Part shown: positions 585-21,010 of the stretch, piece by piece
How the letters are laid out: every line of letters begins with the position of its first letter
Numbering within the stretch: the stretch's first letter is position 1
DNA from: a bacterium
GTDB taxonomy: Bacteria > T1Sed10-126
Direction: 5' to 3'
NCBI GenBank assembly: GCA_003557545.1
Contig: PWOD01000229.1
Span: forward strand, 1 to 27,121
Length of the DNA stretch: 27,121 bases
The notes under the pieces: model-generated
The model's database searches: none
The model's input: only the letters and a program-made list of their open reading frames with translations
What the model was told of the DNA's origin: nothing
Program-made: the position numbers and the translations under genes

Positions 585-1874
585 TTACTGGTCAATTCTT
601 TCCAACCACTGGCTGGCCAACCGGTTTCCCGGGTCGGATTCCAGTACCCGCTCAAACTCAGACTGAGCTTCAGCATGATTGCCCTGCTGATAAAGCACAG
701 CACCCAGGCCGATCCGGGCAGATTCATCCTCTGGATCTAACTGCAATATCTCCTGATAAAGGGAACGGGCCTGACGGTAATTTTCCTGGTAATAATATAT
801 AGTTGCCAGATTAATCAAGATGTCGGGATTTTCCGGATCTTTTCCCACAGCTCCAGCAAACTTCTCGGCCGCACGTGCCAGATCCTCTTCAAAAAAAGCT
901 TCCAGACCTGCTTCCACCAGAGCTAACACCTCGCGGGCTGCATCTTCAGGTAACTCCGGGGGATCCACTCCCGGCCAATCCTCTCTGCCCGGCAGTACGA
1001 CCGGCCTCTCATCAACCGCTGGGGTCCGGCCAAAAATTGGTGTTCTATCAAACACTTCACGAACCGGATAAGGTTCAGGACCCTGGTCGCCAAACCGGTA
1101 ATTAAACTCAATGCCTGCAGAGTAGCGGGGACTACCATCATCAAAACCTATTCGCACCTGGGGACGGTAGCTACTGAATCTGTGGGGGTTCCAATCAAGA
1201 CCAAGAACTAAATCACGTAAGCTATCACTATCTTTAAAAATTCGTTCACGACCGATTATTTCGGTCCGGAGAGTCAACTGTGGGGAAACAACAAAATGAT
1301 AGCCAATACCAAAGTTCCATCCATTTGTATATTCCTGACCACCTGCCGTCTCACCATCACGAAAACTATAGCCCAGTTCATAAACAACTGCCCCCGGCCC
1401 GGCCGGGGTTTTAAACGGAAAATTTATCCAGTAGTCGGTCCCATCATTACCATGGGGGAAAATATCACTGTCACCAGCAAATCTAGCACCGGCTGAGATA
1501 TAAAAATTATTACTCCAACGATATTTGGTGGCTATCTCTACTGCCTCAATCCCATCATTATCAATGCCACTTTCATCTCGTTCTCGATTGAAACTGTAGC
1601 CGGCACTCAAGCCAATTTCAAAATTATTATAGATTCCATAACGTAGTTCAAAAGGAGAGATCCGCCAGTTGTCATAATCAAAATCATCCAGCAGCTCACG
1701 ATTTTCTTCAAATCCAACCCCAAGGTTAAATTGCCACCCACCACGCGGCTGAATTGCTGACTCCTCAATTCTATCCAGCGCAGCCGAGGCCAATCCGGGC
1801 GTGGGGAACCCCAGCGTAACGAGAAACAGACAGATTAGAACGGCAGGCAGGTTGACAACGATTTTCAAAAACAT
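585..1874 (-). CDS. Outer-membrane beta-barrel protein with C-terminal TPR domain
   Basis: The 429-residue product starts with a signal peptide (about residues 1-31, ending LASA). Roughly residues 32-265 show alternating aromatic/polar strands typical of a transmembrane or surface beta-barrel, followed by a Pro-rich linker. The C-terminus (about 311-429) holds about three TPR units, with the usual NPD/DPE-type turns. ATG 1874 is preceded by GGGGAG with a 7-base gap. It is a paralogue of the protein encoded at 2169-3518: both share the order barrel, linker, TPR, and similar phrases around the second to fifth strands (for example YDNW/YDNF followed by a RYGI/RFGI motif). Inferred role: an outer-membrane protein whose TPR part sits in the periplasm and binds another envelope component. 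I cannot name a family for the barrel. A GC-rich palindrome between A- and T-runs at 561-586 could be a weak terminator. Confidence 0.85.
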   Translation of the reverse strand: MFLKIVVNLPAVLICLFLVTLGFPTPGLASAALDRIEESAIQPRGGWQFNLGVGFEENRELLDDFDYDNWRISPFELRYGIYNNFEIGLSAGYSFNRERDESGIDNDGIEAVEIATKYRWSNNFYISAGARFAGDSDIFPHGNDGTDYWINFPFKTPAGPGAVVYELGYSFRDGETAGGQEYTNGWNFGIGYHFVVSPQLTLRTEIIGRERIFKDSDSLRDLVLGLDWNPHRFSSYRPQVRIGFDDGSPRYSAGIEFNYRFGDQGPEPYPVREVFDRTPIFGRTPAVDERPVVLPGREDWPGVDPPELPEDAAREVLALVEAGLEAFFEEDLARAAEKFAGAVGKDPENPDILINLATIYYYQENYRQARSLYQEILQLDPEDESARIGLGAVLYQQGNHAEAQSEFERVLESDPGNRLASQWLERIDQ

Positions 1875-1897
1875 TTAGCAACTCCCCAAGAAAATAA

Positions 1898-1970
1898 TGG
1901 AGCTGACGGGACTCGAACCCGTGACCTCATCACTGCCAGTGATGCGCTCTCCCAACTGAGCTACAGCCCC
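1898..1970 (-). tRNA. tRNA-Ala(GGC)
   Basis: A 73-base cloverleaf reads from 1970 down to 1898 on the minus strand. The acceptor GGGGCTG pairs with CAGCTCC (one G-U), and the D arm has GTAGCTCAGTTGGGAGAGC. The anticodon stem CATCA/TGATG encloses loop CTGGCAG, giving anticodon GGC, and the T arm has GGGTTCGAGTCCC. The discriminator base is A and the CCA end is not encoded. It lies between two paralogous outer-membrane genes on the same strand. Confidence 0.95.
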
Positions 1971-2168
1971 CTGATTTGAACTAATAAATTATAGTGATTG
2001 GTTGGTGGAAAGTCAACCTGAAGCAGAAAAAACGATCTGACAAAGCTCTGTTGCTTAATTTGACTGTGGCTAAAATTTTCTCAAATAAGTTGGATGACCG
2101 GCAAAAAAGTTCGAGGACAGCAGTACAGAAGAGTAAAAAAAGTAACTTACAACCGGTATCCAGAGCAG

Positions 2169-3518
2169 TTACTCATCCAACAGTGACAACCAGTCCTGAA
2201 CGGTCTGGTTCCCGGGATCGATCTCCAGGACCTGGAGAAATTTTTCTCGGGCCGATTCAAATTCACCCAGCTGATAATAAGAGGCACCAAGATATTTACG
2301 GGCGATTGTCTCAGTCGGATCAACCTCAAGGACTTCACGGTAGTAGTCCCGGGCCTGCTGATACTCCTGCCGTCTGAAATGCAACCCTGCCAGATTCGAC
2401 AGAATAATCAGATCATCCGGACGCTGTTCAAGAGCCTGCTCATATTTTTCAATTGCCTGGTTAAGATCATTTCTATTGAAAGCTGCCAGCGCCTGCTGTT
2501 TAAGTTCCTCCGGGTCAACCTCAGGCCGGGGGCGGGGAGTCGGTTCTGGCATTTCAACCGGTTCTGGACGTTCAGGTTCCGGAGCCGGTTCTGGTTCAGG
2601 TTCTGGTTCAGGTTCCGGCCTGGGTTCAACAGCTGCTCTTACCGGAGTGCGAGTTGAAAAGCGCGGTTCCGGTACAAGAGCCGGACGGTCCGGTCGAGGA
2701 TAGCCAAAATTTAAAGACATATTTAATCCCAGGGAAAAATCCGGGCTTCCCTCTAACAACCCGGCGGCCAGATAAGGGGAGACAGCGGTTTGATGATTAA
2801 TCCTCACCGTCGATCCAAAAATCAACTGTAAATGATCGGAAAAGGAACCACCTTCCTCTATCTCAGCCCGGGCCTGACTGCCTAACAGTTCAAAAACATA
2901 GGCAAAAGTTCTGCTGCTATTCCAGCTATAACCGATCCCATAATTAAGATGGTTAGCCCATGAACCAACATCGTTATCACCATTTTCTACGTTTCCTCCG
3001 GCAAAAGTATAGCCTACCTCTGCATGCAAATGACCATCTCCAAGGTCAAAGACCATTGGTAAATTAAGCTTAAACTGGACGCGATCCCCCCCATATGGGT
3101 GAACCGACGGTTCGCCGGCAAAATGAAACCAGAGTGAAGTTGCTACATTTCGATGCCAGCGAAACCTGGTAAAAAGATCAATCGCCTCGATATTGTTTTC
3201 GGTTGGATAACCGGAACCGGAGTTGGCTGAAAATCTGGTGCCCACTCCAAACTCCACATTGTTCAATATACCAAATCGATATTGAAGGGGAGCCACTCTA
3301 AAATTATCATATTCACGGGTCCCATCATCGATTAAATCTTTCCCCAGGGTTCGGTTGATCTCATAAGCTCCTCCGACTCTTACCTGCTGATCACCGCGGC
3401 GAAGAAATTCCAGTGATTCTAAATGAATTGGATAGCCAGTGGCATAGACCGGCGACAAAATCATCAAACCAAACACAGTTATAAAGAGAAAACTAATATG
3501 ACTCCTATAGCTATACAA
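2169..3518 (-). CDS. Outer-membrane barrel/TPR protein with Pro-Glu spacer
   Basis: I chose TTG at 3518 as the start because GGGAGGTG lies 5 bases upstream; an in-frame ATG at 3560 has no ribosome site. From that TTG the product is 449 residues and begins with a clean signal peptide ending SPVYA. A barrel-like domain (about residues 30-275) is followed by a Pro/Glu-rich spacer (about 298-335, with a run of PE dipeptides). Three TPR units then reach the C-terminus (about 337-449). Pro-Glu spacers of this sort stretch across the periplasm in TonB-like proteins. By analogy this one would place the TPR domain away from the outer membrane, perhaps at the cell wall. It is a paralogue of the gene at 585-1874, and tRNA-Ala separates the two. 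Specific function is unknown. Confidence 0.85.
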   Translation of the reverse strand: MYSYRSHISFLFITVFGLMILSPVYATGYPIHLESLEFLRRGDQQVRVGGAYEINRTLGKDLIDDGTREYDNFRVAPLQYRFGILNNVEFGVGTRFSANSGSGYPTENNIEAIDLFTRFRWHRNVATSLWFHFAGEPSVHPYGGDRVQFKLNLPMVFDLGDGHLHAEVGYTFAGGNVENGDNDVGSWANHLNYGIGYSWNSSRTFAYVFELLGSQARAEIEEGGSFSDHLQLIFGSTVRINHQTAVSPYLAAGLLEGSPDFSLGLNMSLNFGYPRPDRPALVPEPRFSTRTPVRAAVEPRPEPEPEPEPEPAPEPERPEPVEMPEPTPRPRPEVDPEELKQQALAAFNRNDLNQAIEKYEQALEQRPDDLIILSNLAGLHFRRQEYQQARDYYREVLEVDPTETIARKYLGASYYQLGEFESAREKFLQVLEIDPGNQTVQDWLSLLDE

Positions 3519-3674
3519 AGAAACACCTCCCGCCTGACATAAAAAAAGGGTTGAGTTCATCTATTTTTTCGACATCTACCATGAATACCTAAAGGAAGAG
3601 TTTTTTGTCGACTGTAATAATTGAGTTTAAGCGCCAAAACCTTGCGGCTCCTCCGGTTTCTTTAAAAGATCGGT

Positions 3675-4290: not shown

Positions 4291-5448
4291 TCAGCTGTGC
4301 ATATTCCTTAATCGTTGATTACAGCTGATGAGCGCCGAAATTACCTGCAACTGTCCGGTTTCGAGACTGGACAGGTCCAATCTCTCATTTTCATGGTGTC
4401 GATGATGACCTCGGGCCAACCCGACGGTTACCGTAGGTATGCCGGCATCGATAAAAATACAGCTATCAGAAGATCCGGGCCCTTTAACTGAATCAACCTT
4501 TAATTGAGAATGTATCGACTCAATTTCCTCAACTAACCAGTGATTTTCCGGCAAACCACTTACCGGCCGCCGGGTGATTTCCTGGTAGTTCAGTTCAACC
4601 GAACTTCTTTCTTTATACTGCTGAATAAGTTCTATAATCCGTTCGTTCAACTCTTCCATTACCTCGGTCTCATCAGCCCGGATTTCAAGATCTAATTCAC
4701 AGTTATAGGGAACAGTATTAAAAGAAGAGCCCCCTCGAATTCGTCCTGCATTGACAAAAACAAACGGTTTTTCAGAAGGATATTCATCGTATATCCGATA
4801 GATATCAGTGACCAGTTGGCTGATCACTCTAATCGGATTTTCTCCTGTTTTATCCCGCCAGACATGTCCACCCTGGCTCTCGGTTTTGATCTGAATCCTG
4901 ATAGTTCCAAGAGACCAATGATCTATTCGCCCCAGACCATGGCCTTCCAGACAGAGAGTAAAGCCTACCTGCTGCTCGAAATTTTTGACAAAATAGCGGG
5001 TTCCCTGGAGATTACCTCTACCCTCAGTTCCGGTAGTAGCCAGCAGAATAAGATTCCCCGGCTCATCTTCCGGTAACAATCTTACAATTGATAATAATGT
5101 TGCCAGCCCGAGACTGTTATCACCAACCCCGGGACCGGAAACTACTCGATCATCAATCTGCACAGTATGATTGACCGATCGATCAAAGACAGTGTCAAGA
5201 TGAGCGGTCACACAAACTGGTGGAGTATTTCTGGTCTTACGATGGGCGATTACGTTCCCAACGGGATCAATGTAGACAGTATCGACATGCAACCGCTTAA
5301 AAGCATCGGCAAGAACCTCGGCACGATCACTTTCATCAAAAGTCGGTGCCGGCACCTGGCTAATATTTACCAGGTCAGACAACAGATTCATTCGATCACG
5401 GGCAATTTTCTCACGCAGTGTAGGAATTTCCAGATCTCCAATCGACAT
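4291..5448 (-). CDS. M20-family metallohydrolase homologue with altered active site
   Basis: The 385-residue product resembles the Firmicutes PepT-like branch of M20 peptidases. Visible landmarks are AHLDTV (metal His and Asp), GVGDNSLG (bridging Asp), GGHVWRDKTGENPI and SSFNTVP in the dimerisation lid, SSDSC, and a His-rich GHHRHHENE near the end where the family has its final metal His. The catalytic segment, normally GEEG followed by L/R-G-x-L-R-G, reads TGTEGRGNLQG here. The metal-binding Glu is kept but the general-base Glu is Thr. It may therefore be inactive or have changed chemistry. ATG 5448 is preferred over ATG 5454 because GAGGAGG then lies 8 bases upstream. It is coupled to the downstream MobA-like gene. 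Confidence 0.85.
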   Translation of the reverse strand: MSIGDLEIPTLREKIARDRMNLLSDLVNISQVPAPTFDESDRAEVLADAFKRLHVDTVYIDPVGNVIAHRKTRNTPPVCVTAHLDTVFDRSVNHTVQIDDRVVSGPGVGDNSLGLATLLSIVRLLPEDEPGNLILLATTGTEGRGNLQGTRYFVKNFEQQVGFTLCLEGHGLGRIDHWSLGTIRIQIKTESQGGHVWRDKTGENPIRVISQLVTDIYRIYDEYPSEKPFVFVNAGRIRGGSSFNTVPYNCELDLEIRADETEVMEELNERIIELIQQYKERSSVELNYQEITRRPVSGLPENHWLVEEIESIHSQLKVDSVKGPGSSDSCIFIDAGIPTVTVGLARGHHRHHENERLDLSSLETGQLQVISALISCNQRLRNMHS

Positions 5449-5533
5449 CACCATTACCTCCTCAGGATAAAACTCCAGATATTTTTCCGATTATTACAGC
5501 AGATCAAACTAAAACAGCAAACTAATTTACTGA

Positions 5534-8506
5534 TCAATAGGATTTTACCTGGTACTGTTTAAAATCAAGTTCTTCCATTAATCGTTTTCCAATAAATTTA
5601 ACATAATTTCCAAAATTACTGTTGGTTACCCGCTGGAACGAGGCTCGATCAAATTTAGCGTTGAACATCGGCTGACAGGAGGCGGCCCGAATATTACCAC
5701 CATCACGATATGTCCCGAGCAGGCGGGCCACTTTACTAAGATCAACAGTTTCCTCATGATCACGAATATTCCGCATAACCAGATTAGACGGTGACAGAGA
5801 GTAGAAAAAATAATCCATTGGATATTTTGAACGCAGGTGGGCGAGAGCCAGAGGATAGGTGAGGTTAGGGTCATCTTTACCGGTATAGACAGATTTTGCC
5901 ATACAGATGTTAACCCCGCTCTTTTCCCCGGTCAACTGCAACCGGTATACATTCCGTTCAAGTCGTGACAGAACTTTTTCCATACCCGGTTCAAACTCCT
6001 CCGGATACTGTTCTTCAAGAGCAACAAGATCCAACCCTGTCTCCTCAGTTATAGTTTCCAGAAGATAATAAAGATATTCGGCAAAATTCCGATCCGACAC
6101 CCGATCAAATCTTTTTTTAGGAAATCCGGGATTGTTTTCCGGTGATCCGGTAGCAGCAGAGGCATGCCCGCCATCCGAAGGACTTCCGATTTTACTAACG
6201 AGATTACTCAAATCAATATCATACCCGGATTCATTAACCCGCCGGGTTGAAAAAAGAAAGGAACCATAAGCATAAAAATAATAATCCATAGAATAACGTT
6301 TTTTTAAGTAATTAAGGGCAGAGGCTATATTGATCGACGGTTCACCCAACCGTTTGTTACAGAAGGGAGATAGAGCAGCGAAAATATCCACTCCCCGCCC
6401 TGATTTTTTTGCATAGAAATCCCGATAAAAATGCTCCTTGCTCCCCGGACCACCGGTTAAAAGCTCGATTGGATGGAAAAATTTCCCCAGCCCAACTTTA
6501 TCAGAATAAGCACCTTCTTCGGGAGGTTCGACAAGCTTGATGTGAAACAAAGATTTTTCCACCCGGGGGAGCACACGGGCCAGACCCGCTTCATATTGAG
6601 CAACAACTTCATCCCAGCACTGCCGGGACATGATAGAGGTGAACTCCCGTTTGGTTTTTACTGACATCAGTGCCTTCACCATCTTCACCTTGTTATAAGA
6701 TGATCCGATCAGTTTAGAGAGCTCAATCGCCAGTTTAGATTCCTTGATATGGAGATCCTGCAGACGAGCTTCGGCCCGTAATCGCTGCAAGCCAGGATTG
6801 TCAGCCTGGGTATCCTTAACAAACTGTTCATAAATTAGATCACCGCCACATTTTTGCTCCTCCAGTGGCAGTTCCTGCCCCTGGGGCAGACTGGAAAGCA
6901 CAATATCTTCAACAATCAATCCCTCCTCCTTGAGCTTTTCCAACCGCTGGAGAATTTCTGGAGCATAGGGATGATGATCATCAATCCTCATCAACCTGAC
7001 ATCATGTTCGGCCAGATGTCTGATATGAGCCTCAATCAGATCGCAGTTTATCTCAAGTGCCCGATCGGTGGCCACCGATTTTCCAGACTCAAGCTGTTCA
7101 ACATTAACGTTTTTTTCCTCGCCTGAACTTCCTCCTCTAATATATTCAACCAGCCGAAACTCAACCGAATCGGGAGCAGGATGTTCTGAAAAGTAATCCT
7201 CAGTTAAGATTAGATCTTCGGGATAAGTAATAAAATCCAGATCATTATGGGTCACAGTAACTCCAAACTCCGACTTATCTTCCGTAGCAAACTCCAACAA
7301 AACCTCGGCCGTTCCGGCTTCATCAGTAGGTAAGGCAAGATTTTTATAGCTATTTTCCTGCGACTCCGGACGACTCAACTTAAGCTCACCCTGTTTGACA
7401 TTAAACACCAGTTCAACCCCTTCAACCGGGCGACCGGAAGTCGATTCAACAAGTTGCACTATAAGCCGATTTTTTAAGGCTTCACTGTCAGCAATCAGCC
7501 ACTCATAGGAGAGCTGATTCCAGAAATCTTTAACAGTTTTTAAATCTTCAGAGATAGTCTTGATATTCTGATTTTCCTGATTTGCCTGAAGGATCTTTTC
7601 AACCAGCTTGTGGAACTGCTCAAGCGGCCCGAGAACCGCATCCCTGACTAAACCGAGCCAATCCTTAAAATCTTTTTTTGCCTCTTCAGTCAACTCATCA
7701 GCAATATTATTTAACATCAAACAGGTGCTAACATAGACCGAAACACCCTCGACCCAGACACCCAGCATCTGCTCGTGCCAGCCCAATCTTCCCCGGCATC
7801 CATAATCAAACCCAATCGAATCATTTAGCAGTAAACGGCGATTAACTTTTCCCTGGGGAATTTCAAAGAGCAGCTCACGCTTCAGATTGGAATCCAAAAC
7901 ATCTTTCAGTTCACTGCGGGCCCGGTCAAACTCCCGGCCGGTCAACCAGTCCGCCAGCAGTTTTATTACTTCACTTTCTTCACCGGTTTCTACAATCTGA
8001 CCGGCCAGTGCTCCAATAATCGAGGAGTACTGCCGGGTCATCCAGATCTCATAATATTTTCGGTCAGCGGTTATTTTACCGATCTGTTTGACAAGGTCGT
8101 TATATATGGTCTTAGTAGTTTCAGAAAAGCATTCTGAATTACCATAAAATATTCTTCTTATTATCTGTTTTTGCTGATAGAGATCGGATCGTAACCCGGC
8201 TTCCTCAGCTCGCTGCATCCGACGCAGCTCAAGGCGGGGCGCCAGCGCATCAATCGGAAAATCAGGTAGATATAAATCTGAACCCGGATGCCAATCCAGA
8301 TGTCTTAAGCCCTCCGAATAATTAACGAAATCAAACTCATAATCTTCACCATAAACCGGTTCACGACCGGTTTTTTCTTTAAAATGGTGCTGAAACCAGG
8401 CCCCAAAAAAAGCATTCGAGCTAACCGTATCAAGATCACCCCCGGATTCCTTACCAAGTCCATCCTTTTCACCCAGACCGTGAATAATAAATATCTTTTT
8501 TCGCAT
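5534..8506 (-). CDS. Multidomain DHH/DHHA1 phosphoesterase-like protein
   Basis: This 990-residue protein is unlike any named family I know as a whole. Residues 5-12 read IFIIHGLG, as in the oxyanion loop of alpha/beta hydrolases, but no GxSxG nucleophile elbow follows, so that reading is weak. Residues about 345-425 look like an Ig-like/Big-type beta domain (RPVEGVELVF then TDEAGTAEVLLEF). Residues about 480-565 include RIDDHHPY (507-514) and CGGDLIYEQF, which resemble motif III and its follow-on helix in DHH phosphoesterases. Two DHHA1-like units follow. The first ends in DGGHASAATG (778-787) and the second in DGGNIRAAS (935-943), each preceded by a YxMDYxFY strand and DLS segment. The first Asp motifs of DHH enzymes are not clear. 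No signal peptide is present, so it is probably cytoplasmic. ATG 8506 has AGGAGG 6 bases upstream. It stands alone between unrelated genes. Confidence 0.75.
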   Translation of the reverse strand: MRKKIFIIHGLGEKDGLGKESGGDLDTVSSNAFFGAWFQHHFKEKTGREPVYGEDYEFDFVNYSEGLRHLDWHPGSDLYLPDFPIDALAPRLELRRMQRAEEAGLRSDLYQQKQIIRRIFYGNSECFSETTKTIYNDLVKQIGKITADRKYYEIWMTRQYSSIIGALAGQIVETGEESEVIKLLADWLTGREFDRARSELKDVLDSNLKRELLFEIPQGKVNRRLLLNDSIGFDYGCRGRLGWHEQMLGVWVEGVSVYVSTCLMLNNIADELTEEAKKDFKDWLGLVRDAVLGPLEQFHKLVEKILQANQENQNIKTISEDLKTVKDFWNQLSYEWLIADSEALKNRLIVQLVESTSGRPVEGVELVFNVKQGELKLSRPESQENSYKNLALPTDEAGTAEVLLEFATEDKSEFGVTVTHNDLDFITYPEDLILTEDYFSEHPAPDSVEFRLVEYIRGGSSGEEKNVNVEQLESGKSVATDRALEINCDLIEAHIRHLAEHDVRLMRIDDHHPYAPEILQRLEKLKEEGLIVEDIVLSSLPQGQELPLEEQKCGGDLIYEQFVKDTQADNPGLQRLRAEARLQDLHIKESKLAIELSKLIGSSYNKVKMVKALMSVKTKREFTSIMSRQCWDEVVAQYEAGLARVLPRVEKSLFHIKLVEPPEEGAYSDKVGLGKFFHPIELLTGGPGSKEHFYRDFYAKKSGRGVDIFAALSPFCNKRLGEPSINIASALNYLKKRYSMDYYFYAYGSFLFSTRRVNESGYDIDLSNLVSKIGSPSDGGHASAATGSPENNPGFPKKRFDRVSDRNFAEYLYYLLETITEETGLDLVALEEQYPEEFEPGMEKVLSRLERNVYRLQLTGEKSGVNICMAKSVYTGKDDPNLTYPLALAHLRSKYPMDYFFYSLSPSNLVMRNIRDHEETVDLSKVARLLGTYRDGGNIRAASCQPMFNAKFDRASFQRVTNSNFGNYVKFIGKRLMEELDFKQYQVKSY

Positions 8507-8704
8507 AATTTCCTCCTGAACAGTGAAATTAAAACTAACCTAGCTTCCAGAATCAAAACTCCTGAACCTGTAAATTTCCAACTGCTATCCCTGTTGAATC
8601 TATCCACCTTCGCTTCAAATGGATATAATAAAAATACCAAAAATTACGACAAAGCAGTAGCTGTTTGACATTAAATTAGAAAAATATCAGTGAAGTGATT
8701 GGAT

Positions 8705-10749: not shown

Positions 10750-11232
10750 TTAGACCTCTTTAAGCTTTTCCGAAAGTATCACAATATGGGATTTTTCTTG
10801 GTCAATAATCTCTGCCACACGATCCCGCCCATATTCTGCCGGAACGTTCTGAATGATCTGGTTGTAGAAGATAATCGTATCCTTCTCCAGTCCAATAGCA
10901 GTTTCGATTATTTCAGCCAGGGACTCTTCACCATCCAACTGCTTGACAACATCAGGGTCACCTTCGCCGCCATGTGTGGCAGCCAATGTCTGCAAGAACA
11001 GTTTGGCTTCCTGATCAGGATCAAATCCTGCGGACCCTTTTTCTACCGAAGAAAGTGTCTGGCGAAGCTCAACGAACTTTTGAGCGTGCTCGACTTCCAT
11101 CTCCGCAAGTTCTTCCAGAAACCCCCGGTGATCGGGGTGCAAATAGGCGGCCCGGCGATAGAATTTAACCCCATTTTTTTCAACCTGTTCGGCCAGTTGA
11201 AAGATCTCCTCAGCTTTGAAAGTAATTGCCAA
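10750..11232 (-). CDS. Rubrerythrin-like ferritin-superfamily diiron protein
   Basis: The 160-residue all-helical product has the two half-sites of a ferritin-like diiron centre: E18 in the first helix, E46-x2-H49 (EVEH) in the second, then LEKDTIIFY and DQEKSHI in the C-terminal pair of helices. It lacks the C-terminal rubredoxin domain of classical rubrerythrin. It could be a peroxidase using an outside electron donor or an iron-binding relative. The start is TTG 11232, in a row of genes, with GGGGAG 11 bases upstream. It begins 2 bases after the ferritin stop codon and is the last gene of the dfx-ferritin operon. Confidence 0.85.
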   Translation of the reverse strand: MAITFKAEEIFQLAEQVEKNGVKFYRRAAYLHPDHRGFLEELAEMEVEHAQKFVELRQTLSSVEKGSAGFDPDQEAKLFLQTLAATHGGEGDPDVVKQLDGEESLAEIIETAIGLEKDTIIFYNQIIQNVPAEYGRDRVAEIIDQEKSHIVILSEKLKEV

Positions 11233-11234
11233 TC

Positions 11235-11756
11235 TCAGTCACTCTCCCCGCCAGGAAACTGAAACAGGGGAGGGCGACTTCCATAATCTCTGTCCAGCAT
11301 CAGCAGCACTCCCATATCATCTCCTGCCATTTCCAGCTGATTAACCAGGTTATCGGCCGAATCCTCTTCCTCAACCTGCTCCTCCACAAACCACTGTAAA
11401 AACTGCCGGGTAGCATAATCGTTCAGCTCATCAGCCAGACTGACCAACTGATTAATTAATCCCGTCACCTTCTGCTCATGCTGGTATGTGTCCCGGGCAA
11501 CAGCCAGGGCAGAATCCCATTCTAGCGGAGGCTGCTCGATAGCCTGCAGCCGAGCACGGCCGCCCCTTTCAAGCAGATAATCCTGGATTTTCATCGCATG
11601 ATAAAGCTCTTCCTGAGCCTGGGTCTTCATCCAGTTACTAAATCCATCAATACCCTCTTCAGCCAGATAATTGGCCATTGACAGGTACATATAGGATGAA
11701 TACAGTTCCGCGTTTATCTGATCGTTTAAAGCTTTTTCCATTCTTTCATCAATCAT
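11235..11756 (-). CDS. ftnA: Ferritin (FtnA-type)
   Basis: The 173-residue product has the length and ferroxidase pattern of bacterial non-haem ferritin. An N-terminal INAELYSSYMYLSMA helix supplies the first Glu, and EELYHAMK carries the ExxH ligands. A later VEEQVEEE helix supplies further acidic ligands. It would oxidise Fe(II) and store Fe(III) in a 24-subunit shell in the cytoplasm. ATG 11756 follows GGAGGAG by 6 bases and lies 2 bases after the dfx stop codon. Placing it between superoxide reductase and a rubrerythrin-like gene suggests a response to oxygen in which released iron is stored while peroxide is reduced. Confidence 0.93.
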   Translation of the reverse strand: MIDERMEKALNDQINAELYSSYMYLSMANYLAEEGIDGFSNWMKTQAQEELYHAMKIQDYLLERGGRARLQAIEQPPLEWDSALAVARDTYQHEQKVTGLINQLVSLADELNDYATRQFLQWFVEEQVEEEDSADNLVNQLEMAGDDMGVLLMLDRDYGSRPPLFQFPGGESD

Positions 11757-11758
11757 TA

Positions 11759-12133
11759 TTAACTCCTCCAGAGACCATGTACGTTACAAAATTCACGCGC
11801 AGTTACCTCAGCGGCTGCAGTTTCAAATATCGCCACCGGTTCATCACCTGGTTGCAAAAACTTCCGACAGGATTGACCATCGGCAATCAACTCAATCCAC
11901 TCAATATAATGGGCCTCTTCCATCGGGTGAATTGTGCTGCCGACGGTAACCTTATAGCCTCCCTCGATCTGTTCAATCACAGGAACATGTTTTTCGGTAG
12001 TAAAATCAGCAGTTTGTTCATCCATTAACTCCATCGGCTGTCCACAACAAACCAGCTGACCCTGTCCCCCCCGAACTACAACCACAACATTATCACATAG
12101 CTGACAACTGTAGACCTGATCTCTCTCAGCCAT
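11759..12133 (-). CDS. dfx: Desulfoferrodoxin (superoxide reductase, 2Fe type)
   Basis: From ATG 12133 the 124-residue product has the ligand spacing of Desulfovibrio desulfoferrodoxin. Cys10, Cys13, Cys29 and Cys30 form the N-terminal rubredoxin-like FeCys4 centre. His49, His69, His75, Cys116 and His119 form the catalytic centre, with Glu47 and Lys48 beside it. This numbering match supports ATG 12133 over GTG 12142, as does AAAGGGTGATC just upstream. It reduces superoxide to hydrogen peroxide without making oxygen, as expected in an anaerobe. It is first gene of a tight three-gene operon with ferritin and a rubrerythrin-like protein. Confidence 0.95.
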
Positions 12134-12199
12134 CTTGATCACCCTTTCGTAAAATAAACTACTTTAACCCTTTAAGAATTTTTGATTGATTCTATATTA

Positions 12200-17465: not shown

Positions 17466-18296
17466 TCAATGACAGGGCTGCATGCTTTCATAAAAATCTT
17501 TGACTGCAATATAGGGATCCAGTGCAAACTGCTCAAGCTGTTTATACTCCCTCAAATAAGGGCCCGAGCTGTTAAGAAGATTCAGGGTTCTACCCCCCGT
17601 GGCAACTTCGATCTCCTGGTAATTCATCGGATCCAAAAAACCATCGGCGACCATCCCCCCGGTACCTCGCAGCGAGGAAGGGCCAAGAAATGGCCAGACG
17701 ATATAAAATCCATCACCCACCCCCCAGCAGGCCATGGTCTGATTGAAATCGTGGGGCTTCTGTTCCAGATGTTCACCCGCCACATCAAACAATCCGCCCA
17801 GGCCAAAGGTCGTGTTGATCAGGAACCGGCCGAAAGCATTGTGGGCGGCAGAACCTTCCAGTTGAAACAGCGCATTAACAAAATTTACCGGCTCGATTAA
17901 ATTCGAGAAAAAATTGCCGATAGATCGGCGCACCGGATGGGGTGTTATCTTTTCATAGCCACTAACCGCCGGATCCAGCAGATAAAGATAAAATCTATCG
18001 TTAAAAGCAAAGGTTAATCTATTTAACCGCTCCAACGGATCAGAGATCGGCTCGGGCTGTTCAGAGGGCTCATCAAACTCTGTTTCAAACGGATCCCGAT
18101 AATCTCGCTCATGCCAATCACGGGCCGCCACAGGAAGCTCGGCCAGCAGTAAAAATATTAGAAAACAAAGGCCGCAAACAACAAAATATCCCGATGATCT
18201 ACGACCAGATTTAGCCGATTGCTGAATAGCTTGTTGCTCCTTTTTAAAAGTTTTTTTCAACCCTTTCGGAACAGCAGTCGAACTGAACTCACTCAA
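17466..18296 (-). CDS. mlaA: MlaA/VacJ-family outer-membrane lipid-removal protein
   Basis: The conserved MlaA core is clear: DPLERLNRLTFAFNDRFY, FFSNLIEPVNFVNALFQL, GRFLINTTFGLGGLFDVA, DFNQTMACWGVGDGFYIVWPFLGPSSLRGTGG and the final DPYIAVKDFYE. In E. coli MlaA is a lipoprotein ring that removes phospholipid from the outer leaflet and hands it to MlaC. Here the signal segment (about 40-60 residues after the start given) ends LPVAARD and contains no lipobox, so the protein may be cut by signal peptidase I. The start is uncertain. TTG 18296 overlaps the mlaC stop but has only a weak GGA site; an ATT at 18227 has AAGGAG 9 bases before it and would give a compact signal peptide; the frame is open back to TTG 18350. 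Last gene of the mla operon. Confidence 0.85.
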   Translation of the reverse strand: MSEFSSTAVPKGLKKTFKKEQQAIQQSAKSGRRSSGYFVVCGLCFLIFLLLAELPVAARDWHERDYRDPFETEFDEPSEQPEPISDPLERLNRLTFAFNDRFYLYLLDPAVSGYEKITPHPVRRSIGNFFSNLIEPVNFVNALFQLEGSAAHNAFGRFLINTTFGLGGLFDVAGEHLEQKPHDFNQTMACWGVGDGFYIVWPFLGPSSLRGTGGMVADGFLDPMNYQEIEVATGGRTLNLLNSSGPYLREYKQLEQFALDPYIAVKDFYESMQPCH

Positions 18297-18981
18297 CTTT
18301 ATCCAGAGGTACCAGTTCATCGGGAGCTGCGGTTGGATCATCATCCTCAACCCGCTGTTTTAGCAGATCGATTAAATAATCGATAGAATTTCTCGCCAGA
18401 ATATTGCTGAATTGCCGGCGATAATTCTGCACCAGTCCGATTCCCTCGACCTCAAAATCATAGATCTTCCAGCCCGGATCGGCAGCAATCAGACTGAACA
18501 TCAGACGAACCACTTGCCGGTCCCCCTCAAGCACCATTTCCGCCCTGGTATGAACCCTGGCATATCGACCATCGCGGGTTACCTGAGTATCCCCCAGGGT
18601 GATATCGACAATCTGATAATCCCCACCGGCTTCTTCGGCAAGATCTCCGGTCAACCGGTTGACATAGACATCGGTTAGCAACTTCGAAAATAGATCGACC
18701 AGCTGATCTATCTGCTCGTCAGTTGCCTGCCGGGCATAAGGCCCCAGGGCCCGAAAAGTCATCTCCTCAAAATCAAAATCCTCCCGGGCCAGATCAACCA
18801 GTTGCTCACGAACAGTATCTGATTTTAAGGAACTCATCAGATCTGTATCCTCAAGGATCGAGAGAACCTCATCGATCTTCTCCTGCAGATAATCCTCAGG
18901 AGCCATTGTAAATCCCGGTTCCACTGTGAATAGCAGTAAAAAAGCTACAAATAATAAAGAAATCAGTCGTTTGCTCACCAC
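18289..18981 (-). CDS. mlaC: MlaC-like periplasmic phospholipid carrier
   Basis: The 230-residue product has a signal peptide (residues about 1-26, ending GFTMA) and the MlaC/Ttg2D pattern: DLAREDFDFEEMTFRALGPYARQAT, FSKLLTDVYVNRL, then GRYARVHTRAEM and PGWKIYDFEVEGIGLVQNYRRQFSNIL. MlaC shuttles phospholipids between MlaA and the inner-membrane MlaFED complex. The start is GTG 18981 with GAGGAGG 7 bases upstream, overlapping the mlaD stop by 7 bases. The C-terminus ends in an acidic tail beyond the usual domain. Confidence 0.92.
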   Translation of the reverse strand: MVSKRLISLLFVAFLLLFTVEPGFTMAPEDYLQEKIDEVLSILEDTDLMSSLKSDTVREQLVDLAREDFDFEEMTFRALGPYARQATDEQIDQLVDLFSKLLTDVYVNRLTGDLAEEAGGDYQIVDITLGDTQVTRDGRYARVHTRAEMVLEGDRQVVRLMFSLIAADPGWKIYDFEVEGIGLVQNYRRQFSNILARNSIDYLIDLLKQRVEDDDPTAAPDELVPLDKVE

Positions 18982-19433
18982 AGTTCATCCTCCTCGCCAA
19001 AAATAAATCGTGACAGCATATCCTCTATTAATAACGGTGGATTGGTCTCAACTATTTCACCGGTACCGTCCTTGGGAATATTTTCCCGACCATGTCCGGG
19101 AGAAATAGCAATATACTGTTCCCCCAGCAGACCCTCGGTCCTGATCGATGCTTCGGTTCCGGGATCCGGCAGTTCTACATCATGATCGATTCTCAGGGTT
19201 ACCCGGGCCTGATAATTTTCAAGCTCAATATTTGAAACCGTTCCAATCTTCACACCAATCAACCTGACTGCTGTATTTTCTTTCAGCCCGGTAACATCTG
19301 AAAAGACTGCTTCGACCGTATAACGGTTTCTGCCCAGGATATCCACGTCACCAAAACTAATCGAAAGATAGGCCAACGAAAGAATCCCTAAAATCAAAAA
19401 TAAACCTACAATAATGTCAACCTTGCGAATCAT
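18975..19433 (-). CDS. mlaD: MlaD-like inner-membrane MCE-domain protein
   Basis: ATG 19433 (MIRKVDIIVG) is the true start: GGAGG lies 8 bases upstream and the preceding in-frame codons belong to the mlaF reading region. The 152-residue product has a single N-terminal membrane helix, then one MCE domain (YTVEAVFSDVTGLKENTAVRLIGVKIGTVSNIEL and RTEGLLGEQYIAISPG). MlaD forms a hexameric ring on the periplasmic side of MlaE and binds phospholipid. It is of normal MlaD length with a short C-terminal tail. It overlaps mlaF by 17 bases and mlaC by 7, so coupling is likely. Confidence 0.93.
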   Translation of the reverse strand: MIRKVDIIVGLFLILGILSLAYLSISFGDVDILGRNRYTVEAVFSDVTGLKENTAVRLIGVKIGTVSNIELENYQARVTLRIDHDVELPDPGTEASIRTEGLLGEQYIAISPGHGRENIPKDGTGEIVETNPPLLIEDMLSRFIFGEEDELW

Positions 19434-20181
19434 TTTTAACCGCCTCCAGTGGTCCTTGCAACGCCTCAATAACAAAGTTTTGGACGGAAGGATGTTCAAA
19501 TTCCATAAATTCTTCAGGGGTTGTCTGTATACGAATAACTCCTTCATCAAGCATAGCCACTCTGTTAACTATCTGGAAAACTTTCTGGAAATTGTGGGTC
19601 ACTATAACAGCTGTAAATTTAAACTCCTCATGTAAATCACAGATTAGTCGTAAGATTGAGTTGCCAATCAACGGATCAAGACCGGTAGTCGGCTCATCAA
19701 AAAATATGATCTTTGGTTCTCCCACAAGTGTACGGGCCAGAGCAGCTCTTTTTTGCATTCCTCCACTCAATTCAGCCGGATATTTATCGACTGCTTCGCT
19801 CAAACCAACCCGCTGGAGATATTTTTCCACACGAGCATTGATCTGGGTCCGGGTCATCCTGGTTTTTTCTCGCAGGGGAAAAGCTAAATTATCGTAAACA
19901 GTCATCGAATCAAACAGAGCACCTGCCTGAAAAAGCATCCCTATACGATCACGTATACTGGCCAATTCTTTACCGCGGGACCTGTGGATGTCTACATCAT
20001 CAATCAAAACCTCGCCGGAATCAGGTTCCAGCAACCCCACCAGAGTCCTCAACAGGACCGATTTCCCCGCTCCGCTAGCCCCCAGCAGCGCTAATATTTC
20101 ACCATCTTCAACCGTCATATCCACCCCGTTTAACACCTGTTGTGCGGCCAGTTCCTTTCGTAAATTTTTAACTACTATCAT
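19417..20181 (-). CDS. mlaF: MlaF-like ABC ATPase of the Mla transporter
   Basis: The 254-residue product carries an intact ABC ATPase: Walker A GASGAGKS, Q-loop region LFQAGALFDSMTVYDN (the ALFDSMT block is typical of MlaF), signature LSGGMQKR, Walker B IIFFDEPTTGLDP and the switch His in VTHNF. It would power phospholipid movement by MlaE at the inner membrane. ATG 20181 follows GGGAG by 9 bases. It lies 16 bases after the mlaE stop codon. Confidence 0.95.
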   Translation of the reverse strand: MIVVKNLRKELAAQQVLNGVDMTVEDGEILALLGASGAGKSVLLRTLVGLLEPDSGEVLIDDVDIHRSRGKELASIRDRIGMLFQAGALFDSMTVYDNLAFPLREKTRMTRTQINARVEKYLQRVGLSEAVDKYPAELSGGMQKRAALARTLVGEPKIIFFDEPTTGLDPLIGNSILRLICDLHEEFKFTAVIVTHNFQKVFQIVNRVAMLDEGVIRIQTTPEEFMEFEHPSVQNFVIEALQGPLEAVKNDSQG

Positions 20182-20197
20182 ATTATTCTACTCCCTT

Positions 20198-20968
20198 TTA
20201 AAACATCAACGAGGTCATGATGTAATTTGAAACAAGTATCAAAACGCTGGAGAGAACAACGGCTTCGGTCGACGCACGACCGACTCCCTCGGCGCCCCGG
20301 CCGGTATAAAATCCCTTGTAAGTACTGACCCAGGCGACAATCCCACCAAAAACAAATGCTTTAATCGAACCATACAATATATCATTGAAGATAACGAAAT
20401 CAATAACCCCACCGAAATAACTTCCATAACTTACCCCCAACAGTCCACCAGTTACAAAATAACCGGCAAATATTCCAACAAAATTAAAAATTCCCGTGAG
20501 TAAGACAACAGAAATAAGGGAGGCAACAAAGATTGGCGCCATGAAATAACGGAAAGGATTAAGGTTCATGATCTTCAAGGCATCAAACTGCTCTGTGATC
20601 TGCATTACGCCCAGTTCAGAAGCAATCGAGGAACCAGCTCGACCGGCAACCATAATGGCGCAGACAACCGGTCCCAACTCCCGCAGCAAAGCAAGTGATA
20701 CAAGTGTTCCCACGCGACCGGAGGCACCAAACTGGGCCAGGGTATGCTGACCGTGAAGTCCCATAACCGCACCGGTGAAAGCACTGATCAAAATAATTAA
20801 CCAGAGGGATTTGGTGCCAATAAAATTTATCCGATTAATAATCCGATCAAGCTTGATCGGAGGAACAAAGATATAGAGCAGGGTTTTACCGAGAAATTTA
20901 CCGAATAATCCCAGTCTACCCACCGAATATCTCGCTGACCTTCCAAACTTAGCAAAAAAATCTATCAT
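20198..20968 (-). CDS. mlaE: MlaE-like ABC permease
   Basis: The 256-residue membrane protein has the MlaE family core: TGAVMGLHGQHTLAQFGA, ALLRELGPVVCAIMVAGRAGSSIASELGVMQITEQFDAL and the later FIFGGIVAW-like membrane segment (here FVFGGIVAWVSTYKGF), with about five membrane helices. It is the permease of the MlaFEDB-type complex. No MlaB (STAS) gene is present, as is common outside Proteobacteria. ATG 20968 is preferred over the upstream TTG 20992, although its ribosome site (GCGAG) is weak. It leads the mla operon and has a promoter at 21011-21039. Confidence 0.93.
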   Translation of the reverse strand: MIDFFAKFGRSARYSVGRLGLFGKFLGKTLLYIFVPPIKLDRIINRINFIGTKSLWLIILISAFTGAVMGLHGQHTLAQFGASGRVGTLVSLALLRELGPVVCAIMVAGRAGSSIASELGVMQITEQFDALKIMNLNPFRYFMAPIFVASLISVVLLTGIFNFVGIFAGYFVTGGLLGVSYGSYFGGVIDFVIFNDILYGSIKAFVFGGIVAWVSTYKGFYTGRGAEGVGRASTEAVVLSSVLILVSNYIMTSLMF

Positions 20969-21010
20969 CAGTTCTCGCGCCCCTGACTGCAAGCTTAATC
21001 AAACCACCAT

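Follow-up and report, generated by a model that had tools for sequence, protein, structure and literature searches.

Enzymes that combine a DHH domain with a DHHA1 domain complete the degradation of RNA and terminate signalling by c-di-AMP, pGpG and SAM-AMP; their annotation at the level of subclasses is a recognised problem (PMC9757072). In the stand-alone nanoRNases and dinucleotide phosphodiesterases NrnA, DhhP and Rv2837c, an uninterrupted chain of ~320 residues carries motifs I-IV of the DHH domain, followed by the GGH motif of the DHHA1 domain. In GdpP the N-terminal membrane, PAS and GGDEF parts lie outside the DHH domain, and the DHH/DHHA1 part that follows these modules is contiguous. 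NrnA (nanoRNase A) cleaves RNAs of 2-4 nt in the 5'-3' direction. It is marked by the GGGH-x-x-ASG and R-x-R-x-R motifs (PMC9757072), and Cdc45, a member of the RecJ clade, has a helical insertion of ~80 residues with an interaction role in its N-terminal DHH domain (L118-S197 in the human protein; PMC4873980).

The protein analysed here is encoded in the window (the whole stretch of 27,121 nucleotides, contig PWOD01000229.1 of assembly GCA_003557545.1). It shares with NrnA, DhhP and Rv2837c the order of motifs I-IV and then the DHHA1 GGH, and with GdpP the combination of a DHH/DHHA1 catalytic part with added modules. However, it has 990 residues, a split DHH domain and two DHHA1-like units, and its motif I begins at residue 5, with the additional module placed inside the DHH domain. 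It carries DGGH where the stand-alone enzymes have GGGGH, and has no Pfam-level similarity to them; relative to the NrnA motifs, it has SDGGHASAATG, and its unit 1 contains only STRR in place of R-x-R-x-R. The nearest precedent that we found for the insert is the one in the DHH domain of Cdc45 (PMC4873980), but the insert of the window family is ~400 residues long and the motifs around it are intact. In a literature search of partial coverage, no inserted or Ig-like domain within a DHH domain was found.

An uncatalogued family from a few uncultured phyla

The 990-aa ORF is open and intact on the minus strand, is preceded by a strong ribosome-binding site, and occurs as a single copy in its 2.15-Mb draft genome (Table 1). 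The protein matched no family at E≤1 in Pfam, NCBIfam and PADLOC, and no named family in the libraries searched covers it. A PHROGs search gave one weak match of function not known, and a PDB sequence search gave no meaningful match. The protein falls below the curated cut-offs of Pfam DHH (PF01368) and DHHA1 (PF02272), and is assignable to the wider DHH superfamily only, outside the curated Pfam DHH/DHHA1 models as they stand. The escape of the family from the Pfam and NCBIfam models is explained in part by the splitting of its catalytic domain. A first-pass annotation, made from the sequence, had set the 990 residues against the usual ~300-660 of DHH/DHHA1 enzymes, and rightly so, since the chain is far longer than those of known DHH/DHHA1 family members.

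The only relative in the named genome collection was a full-length homologue (64% identity) from the soda-lake MAG T1Sed10_126, hereafter the sister genome; no further genome of this family came up in the relatives search. In a review, the phylum T1Sed10-126 (Candidatus Busufiota) is listed with two genomes, which measure 2.15-2.2 Mb, have 46-48% G+C and come from sediment of hypersaline soda lakes (PMC11382960); we infer that the window's genome and the sister genome both fit this phylum. Whole-genome searches revealed the family in five phylum-level lineages. It is present in both of the genomes just named; in a second lineage, each of the three genomes has one long and one short copy. Further carriers are 2/2 genomes of a third lineage, 6 of the 16 genomes of a fourth, and G151. 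When the family profile was run against 386 genomes sampled across the domain, true members were found in 10; the eleventh match was a canonical DHH-CBS protein, matched at its DHHA1 part (E 7e-4). The family is uncatalogued and divergent, and occurs in a few uncultured bacterial phyla. Phage records, plasmid records and viral contigs contained no relatives, and a mobile-element origin is unsupported.

In a tree of the core, the root of which was not resolved, there were separate clades for the pair of Busufiota proteins, for the three long G029-lineage forms and for the G072 lineage, and the short forms grouped with a set of proteins that carry an N-terminal insert (L006, L023 and L041; 90/86). 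This grouping suggests that the large insert probably arose a single time, in the long-form lineages, or else that the other lineages lost it. For one homologue, L031 (G106:C50:9030-12494), a TAA was counted inside the aligned stretch; it probably sits at one end of that stretch. Read from its own ATG, the ORF stays open for 1,152 aa.

Table 1. Coordinates of the gene, its predicted parts and its downstream neighbour in the window.
Feature	Position	Strand	Basis or remark
Whole gene, 990 aa	5534-8506	-	ATG at 8506, stop at 5534-5536
Ribosome-binding site AGGAGG	8512-8517	-	Sequence; 5 nt ahead of the ATG
DHH motif I: strand and H9 (IFIIHGLG, residues 5-12), D24xD26 (GGDLDT, 22-27)	8426-8494	-	Invariant H9, D24, D26
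DHH motif II: YLPDFPID (79-86), D82	8249-8272	-	Invariant D82
Insert, ~400 aa (89-489), between motifs II and III	7040-8242	-	Alignments; absent from short relatives and the L006/L023/L041 group
Mainly helical part of insert (~95-340)	7487-8224	-	Sequence pattern and low-confidence secondary structure; PDB profile search gave helical-bundle look-alikes only
Plausible Ig-like beta part of insert (~347-425)	7232-7468	-	Weak: sub-threshold Pfam matches to Big_1 (E 0.22) and Filamin (E 0.12); PDB filamin-B E 1.1
DHH motif III: IDDHHP (508-513)	6968-6985	-	D510-H511-H512-P513 invariant in 11-member alignment
CGGDLIYE helix (553-560), family signature after motif III	6827-6850	-	Alignments
DHH motif IV: RLQDL (581-585), D584	6752-6766	-	Q-D invariant
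DHHA1-like unit 1 (698-838), DGGH at 778-781	5993-6415	-	Family and paralog alignments
DHHA1-like unit 2 (843-990), DGGN at 935-938	5537-5980	-	Separate family-HMM match, E 8.2e-26; AF2 pLDDT 79; Foldseek and VIA matches
M20-type peptidase gene, downstream, 79 nt off	4291-5454	-	Same order in sister genome, not in other lineages

Split DHH domain, insert and tandem DHHA1-like units

The motifs on which the first-pass annotation had built its description, IFIIHGLG, RIDDHHPY (507-514), DGGH and DGGN, were all at the residues it gave, and conservation takes them beyond chance. H9, D24, D26, D82, D510, H511, H512, P513, D584 and G779-G780-H781 were invariant in an 11-member core alignment. The catalytic positions of motifs I-IV were kept in 17/17 proteins examined, the short forms L009 and L013 included, and so was the GGH at 779-781 (for L016, as seen in the alignment). 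The invariant positions correspond to motifs I-IV of DHH enzymes and to the GGH of their DHHA1 domains. Motifs I and II are N-terminal, motifs III and IV come after the insert, and the DHH domain is predicted to be built from two chain segments (residues 1-88 and ~490-600).

The short forms L009 (393 aa) and L013 (388 aa) have one uninterrupted core, in which VIHG...GGDLDT is followed by YIPDLPLD, LDHHP, CGAELV, QDL and FFYCYGS..TTRK...DGGHPEAA. The window protein has the same order, but with ~400 residues between YLPDFPID and DDHHP. As judged from these uninterrupted forms, IFIIHG is DHH motif I rather than a separate hydrolase motif; with one complete catalytic motif set in the chain, the suggested second hydrolase half is unsupported. 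A full-length AF2 model of the window protein, made from an alignment of two sequences, was not usable (pLDDT 31). In a sister group (L006, 1462-3558, minus strand; L023; L041, 925-2784, plus strand), another segment of ~190 aa separates HG from GGDLDT within motif I, and the interval between motifs II and III is uninterrupted. L006 also has a GYF_2 domain at its N-terminus.

Direct profile matches between the family and canonical DHH proteins were weak (P about 1e-4 to 1e-5). A single profile mixing all canonical DHH groups diluted the signal, which group-wise profiles restored. A bridge was provided by the paralogs L024 (376 aa) and L053 (364 aa), found in the two genomes with L006 and L023, which aligned end to end with the family (hhalign E 8e-18). 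They share the core motifs and the DQDF/QDL motif IV with the window family; unlike the window protein, they keep GGGGH, detectable Pfam DHHA1/DHH matches and one DHHA1 unit, and they have no inserts. L053 passed the Pfam DHHA1 cut-off (26.2 bits, cut-off 25.9), and matched positions 6-118 of the 125 positions of Pfam DHH with an E-value of 2.6e-4, which is below cut-off. A profile of L024 and L053 alone, without any family member, was used in an independent scan; it found both DHH halves of the family (E 2.8e-7 to 2.8e-4), and in the same scan matched canonical DHH/DHHA1 proteins (E 2.6e-4 to 6.2e-4). The two paralogs were related to the NrnA group (global hhalign P 2.9e-10) and to the DHH-CBS group (P 1.2e-7), and gave no clear signal with the RecJ group (P 0.007-0.96). 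Through these paralogs, the family is significantly homologous to known DHH proteins, and together with motifs I-IV they bear out the earlier description of the protein as DHH-centred. We conclude that the window protein is very probably a single, very divergent DHH/DHHA1 phosphoesterase, whose DHH domain is interrupted by an insert of ~400 residues.

The first two thirds of the insert look helical, and PDB profile and Pfam searches revealed no recognised enzymatic domain in it. An Ig-like segment had been reported near residues 345-425, and such a fold is plausible for residues ~347-425, with matches that stay below threshold. When a profile of eight inserts was compared with the 386 genomes, full-strength matches occurred only within the family itself; three short matches outside it, with E-values near 1e-4 to 1e-3, look like chance. 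Identity of the long-form insert with that of the L006/L023/L041 group was unsupported (hhalign E 0.07, probability 0.8%).

Units 1 and 2 share 28% identity, and they are a tandem duplication of a substrate-binding DHHA1-like domain, in which unit 2 is degenerate in the histidine. The window protein has DGGN as its unit 2 motif and the sister-genome protein has DGGH, with DGGL, DGGT or DGGS in other members; this variability suggests that its histidine is under a different constraint from that of unit 1. The AF2 model of unit 2, made from an alignment of the window and L002 units, had a pTM of 0.77 in addition to the pLDDT of 79. This model was compared with the PDB using Foldseek, and each of the top 11 matches was a DHH/DHHA1 enzyme (TM1595, GdpP, DhhP and an H. 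pylori protein with that fold), with modest E-values (best 2.5e-3). With VIA-align, rows 1-48 were nearly all DHH/DHHA1 proteins, family II pyrophosphatase/PPX, Cdc45/RecJ or AlaRS C-Ala (best Z 9.3, 108 residues, rmsd 3.2 Å), and unit 2 superposed on the DHHA1 domains of NrnA, DhhP and Rv2837c. The consistency of the matches obtained with the predicted fold is a stronger argument than the Foldseek E-values. A DHHA1-type domain is thus indicated by the GGH in the sequence of unit 1 and by the DHHA1 fold in the model of unit 2. Both GGH/GGN units noticed earlier are present, as a tandem DHHA1-like pair. In the G072 lineage (L004, 829-4356, minus strand; L028; L029; L031) the C-terminus is longer, the proteins reaching ~1,176 aa, and a third DHHA1-like unit is possible there.

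Genomic context and proposed function

In the window and in the sister genome, an M20-type peptidase gene and an NTP-transferase-like gene follow the 990-aa gene on its strand, an arrangement absent elsewhere. A neighbourhood survey of homologues found no neighbour conserved across lineages, and synteny within lineages only; the gene stands alone, as had been noted before, with no conserved partner gene. The window also encodes two related secreted proteins (588-1874 and 2172-3560, minus strand) with a porin-like front half and C-terminal TPR repeats, to which one protein encoded nearby in the sister genome is related (31% and 45% identity). By eye, an oxidative-stress cluster of ferritin/rubrerythrin-like, ferritin-like and desulfoferrodoxin-like genes was recognised at 10753-12142 (minus strand), conserved in the sister genome at 54-80%, and an MlaA/MlaC/MlaD/MlaF/MlaE-like lipid-transport operon at 17469-20992 (minus strand), which indicates an outer membrane.

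The genome itself encodes a canonical NrnA (L032), a DHH-CBS-nucleotidyltransferase (L033) and a further DHH protein (L034). The last of these (1330-2781, plus strand) is a 483-aa protein with an HDDPDG motif and a GGGH near the C-terminus; it passed Pfam DHH, was below cut-off for DHHA1, and belonged to neither the NrnA nor the RecJ group of the comparison. It has a counterpart in the sister genome (L105), and similar proteins occur in several carriers. A diadenylate cyclase was present in 10/10 carriers tested and in 11 of 14 control genomes, and a PgpH-type HDED protein in 8 of the 10 carriers, namely the window's genome and 7/9 others; the two G072-type genomes tested had no PgpH-like HDED protein. 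Since NrnA and a PgpH-type candidate c-di-AMP phosphodiesterase are both encoded in the window's genome, nanoRNA, pApA and c-di-AMP turnover look covered there, and the substrate is probably another one. A role as replacement for a missing NrnA or c-di-AMP phosphodiesterase was rejected for this genome for the same reason.

On this basis, the protein would be a phosphodiesterase with one active site, dependent on a divalent metal, probably Mn2+. Metal ions held by H9, D24/D26, D82, D510-H511-H512 and D584 would activate a water for cutting the phosphodiester. The DHH segments 1-88 and ~490-600 would close around the inserted module, helical and probably Ig-like, which would most likely cover the cleft of the active site as a lid, or serve there as a docking platform. 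The DHHA1-like units would hold the substrate, unit 1 with its GGH and unit 2 as an extra, degenerate copy. Our best guess for the substrate, which we place somewhat short of an even chance, is short single-stranded oligonucleotides of RNA or DNA: DHHA1 domains are nucleic-acid binders, and the family has two or perhaps three of them. That the insert is a self-regulating sensor or docking module, peculiar to this family and threaded between motifs II and III, so that binding of a ligand or partner directly opens or closes the active site, is a tentative and rather unlikely refinement.

The same kind of enzyme could act on a nucleotide signal of the c-di-AMP, pApA, pAp, pGpG or SAM-AMP type, and the insert would then sense a ligand. 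The closest solved folds of unit 2, which include DhhP, GdpP, TM1595, Rv2837c and the SAM-AMP enzyme NrN, point in this direction, as do the diadenylate cyclases of all carriers tested and the G072-type genomes lacking a PgpH-like protein. Nevertheless, diadenylate cyclases are so common among the controls that their presence in carriers says little, most carriers have a PgpH-type protein, the window's genome has its own canonical NrnA, and a dinucleotide needs no two or three DHHA1 units; we consider a signal substrate unlikely, though next in line after oligonucleotides. Less probable again is an inactive scaffold with the insert as a protein-docking arm. Cdc45 is a DHH/DHHA1 protein whose helical DHH insertion is thought to serve interactions (PMC4873980), and a large conserved insert suggests binding, but all DHH catalytic positions are kept across five phylum-level lineages, whereas inactive members typically lose some, and neither a clear RecJ-type profile signal nor a conserved partner gene in the neighbourhoods was found.

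The unusual length and the two GGH-like units speak for a bifunctional protein, with a second hydrolase in its N- or C-terminal half, as had been suggested. This now seems very improbable: the N-terminal motif belongs to the DHH domain in the uninterrupted short forms, the GGN unit has a DHHA1-like fold without DHH motifs, and the insert has no recognised enzymatic domain. It is barely credible that residues 430-650 are not DHH and spell the letters by chance; the window protein itself has no direct Pfam match, but the bridge paralogs reach Pfam DHHA1 (above cut-off) and DHH, and the full motif set is invariant in the alignment.

With a single divergent phosphodiesterase as the preferred reading, the kind of enzyme is a known one. 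What is new, relative to the libraries searched, is the family itself, the 400-residue module that splits its DHH domain, and the repetition of DHHA1 units. The family has been kept in several candidate phyla, including both genomes that fit T1Sed10-126 (Candidatus Busufiota), and in a second group (L006/L023/L041) the DHH domain is interrupted elsewhere, by what seems to be an unrelated insert. These observations point to an enzyme class not described before, in which a module is built into the DHH domain in a distinct manner. If the sensor or docking reading of the insert is true, the protein would be a self-regulated phosphodiesterase acting on some nucleotide or oligonucleotide.
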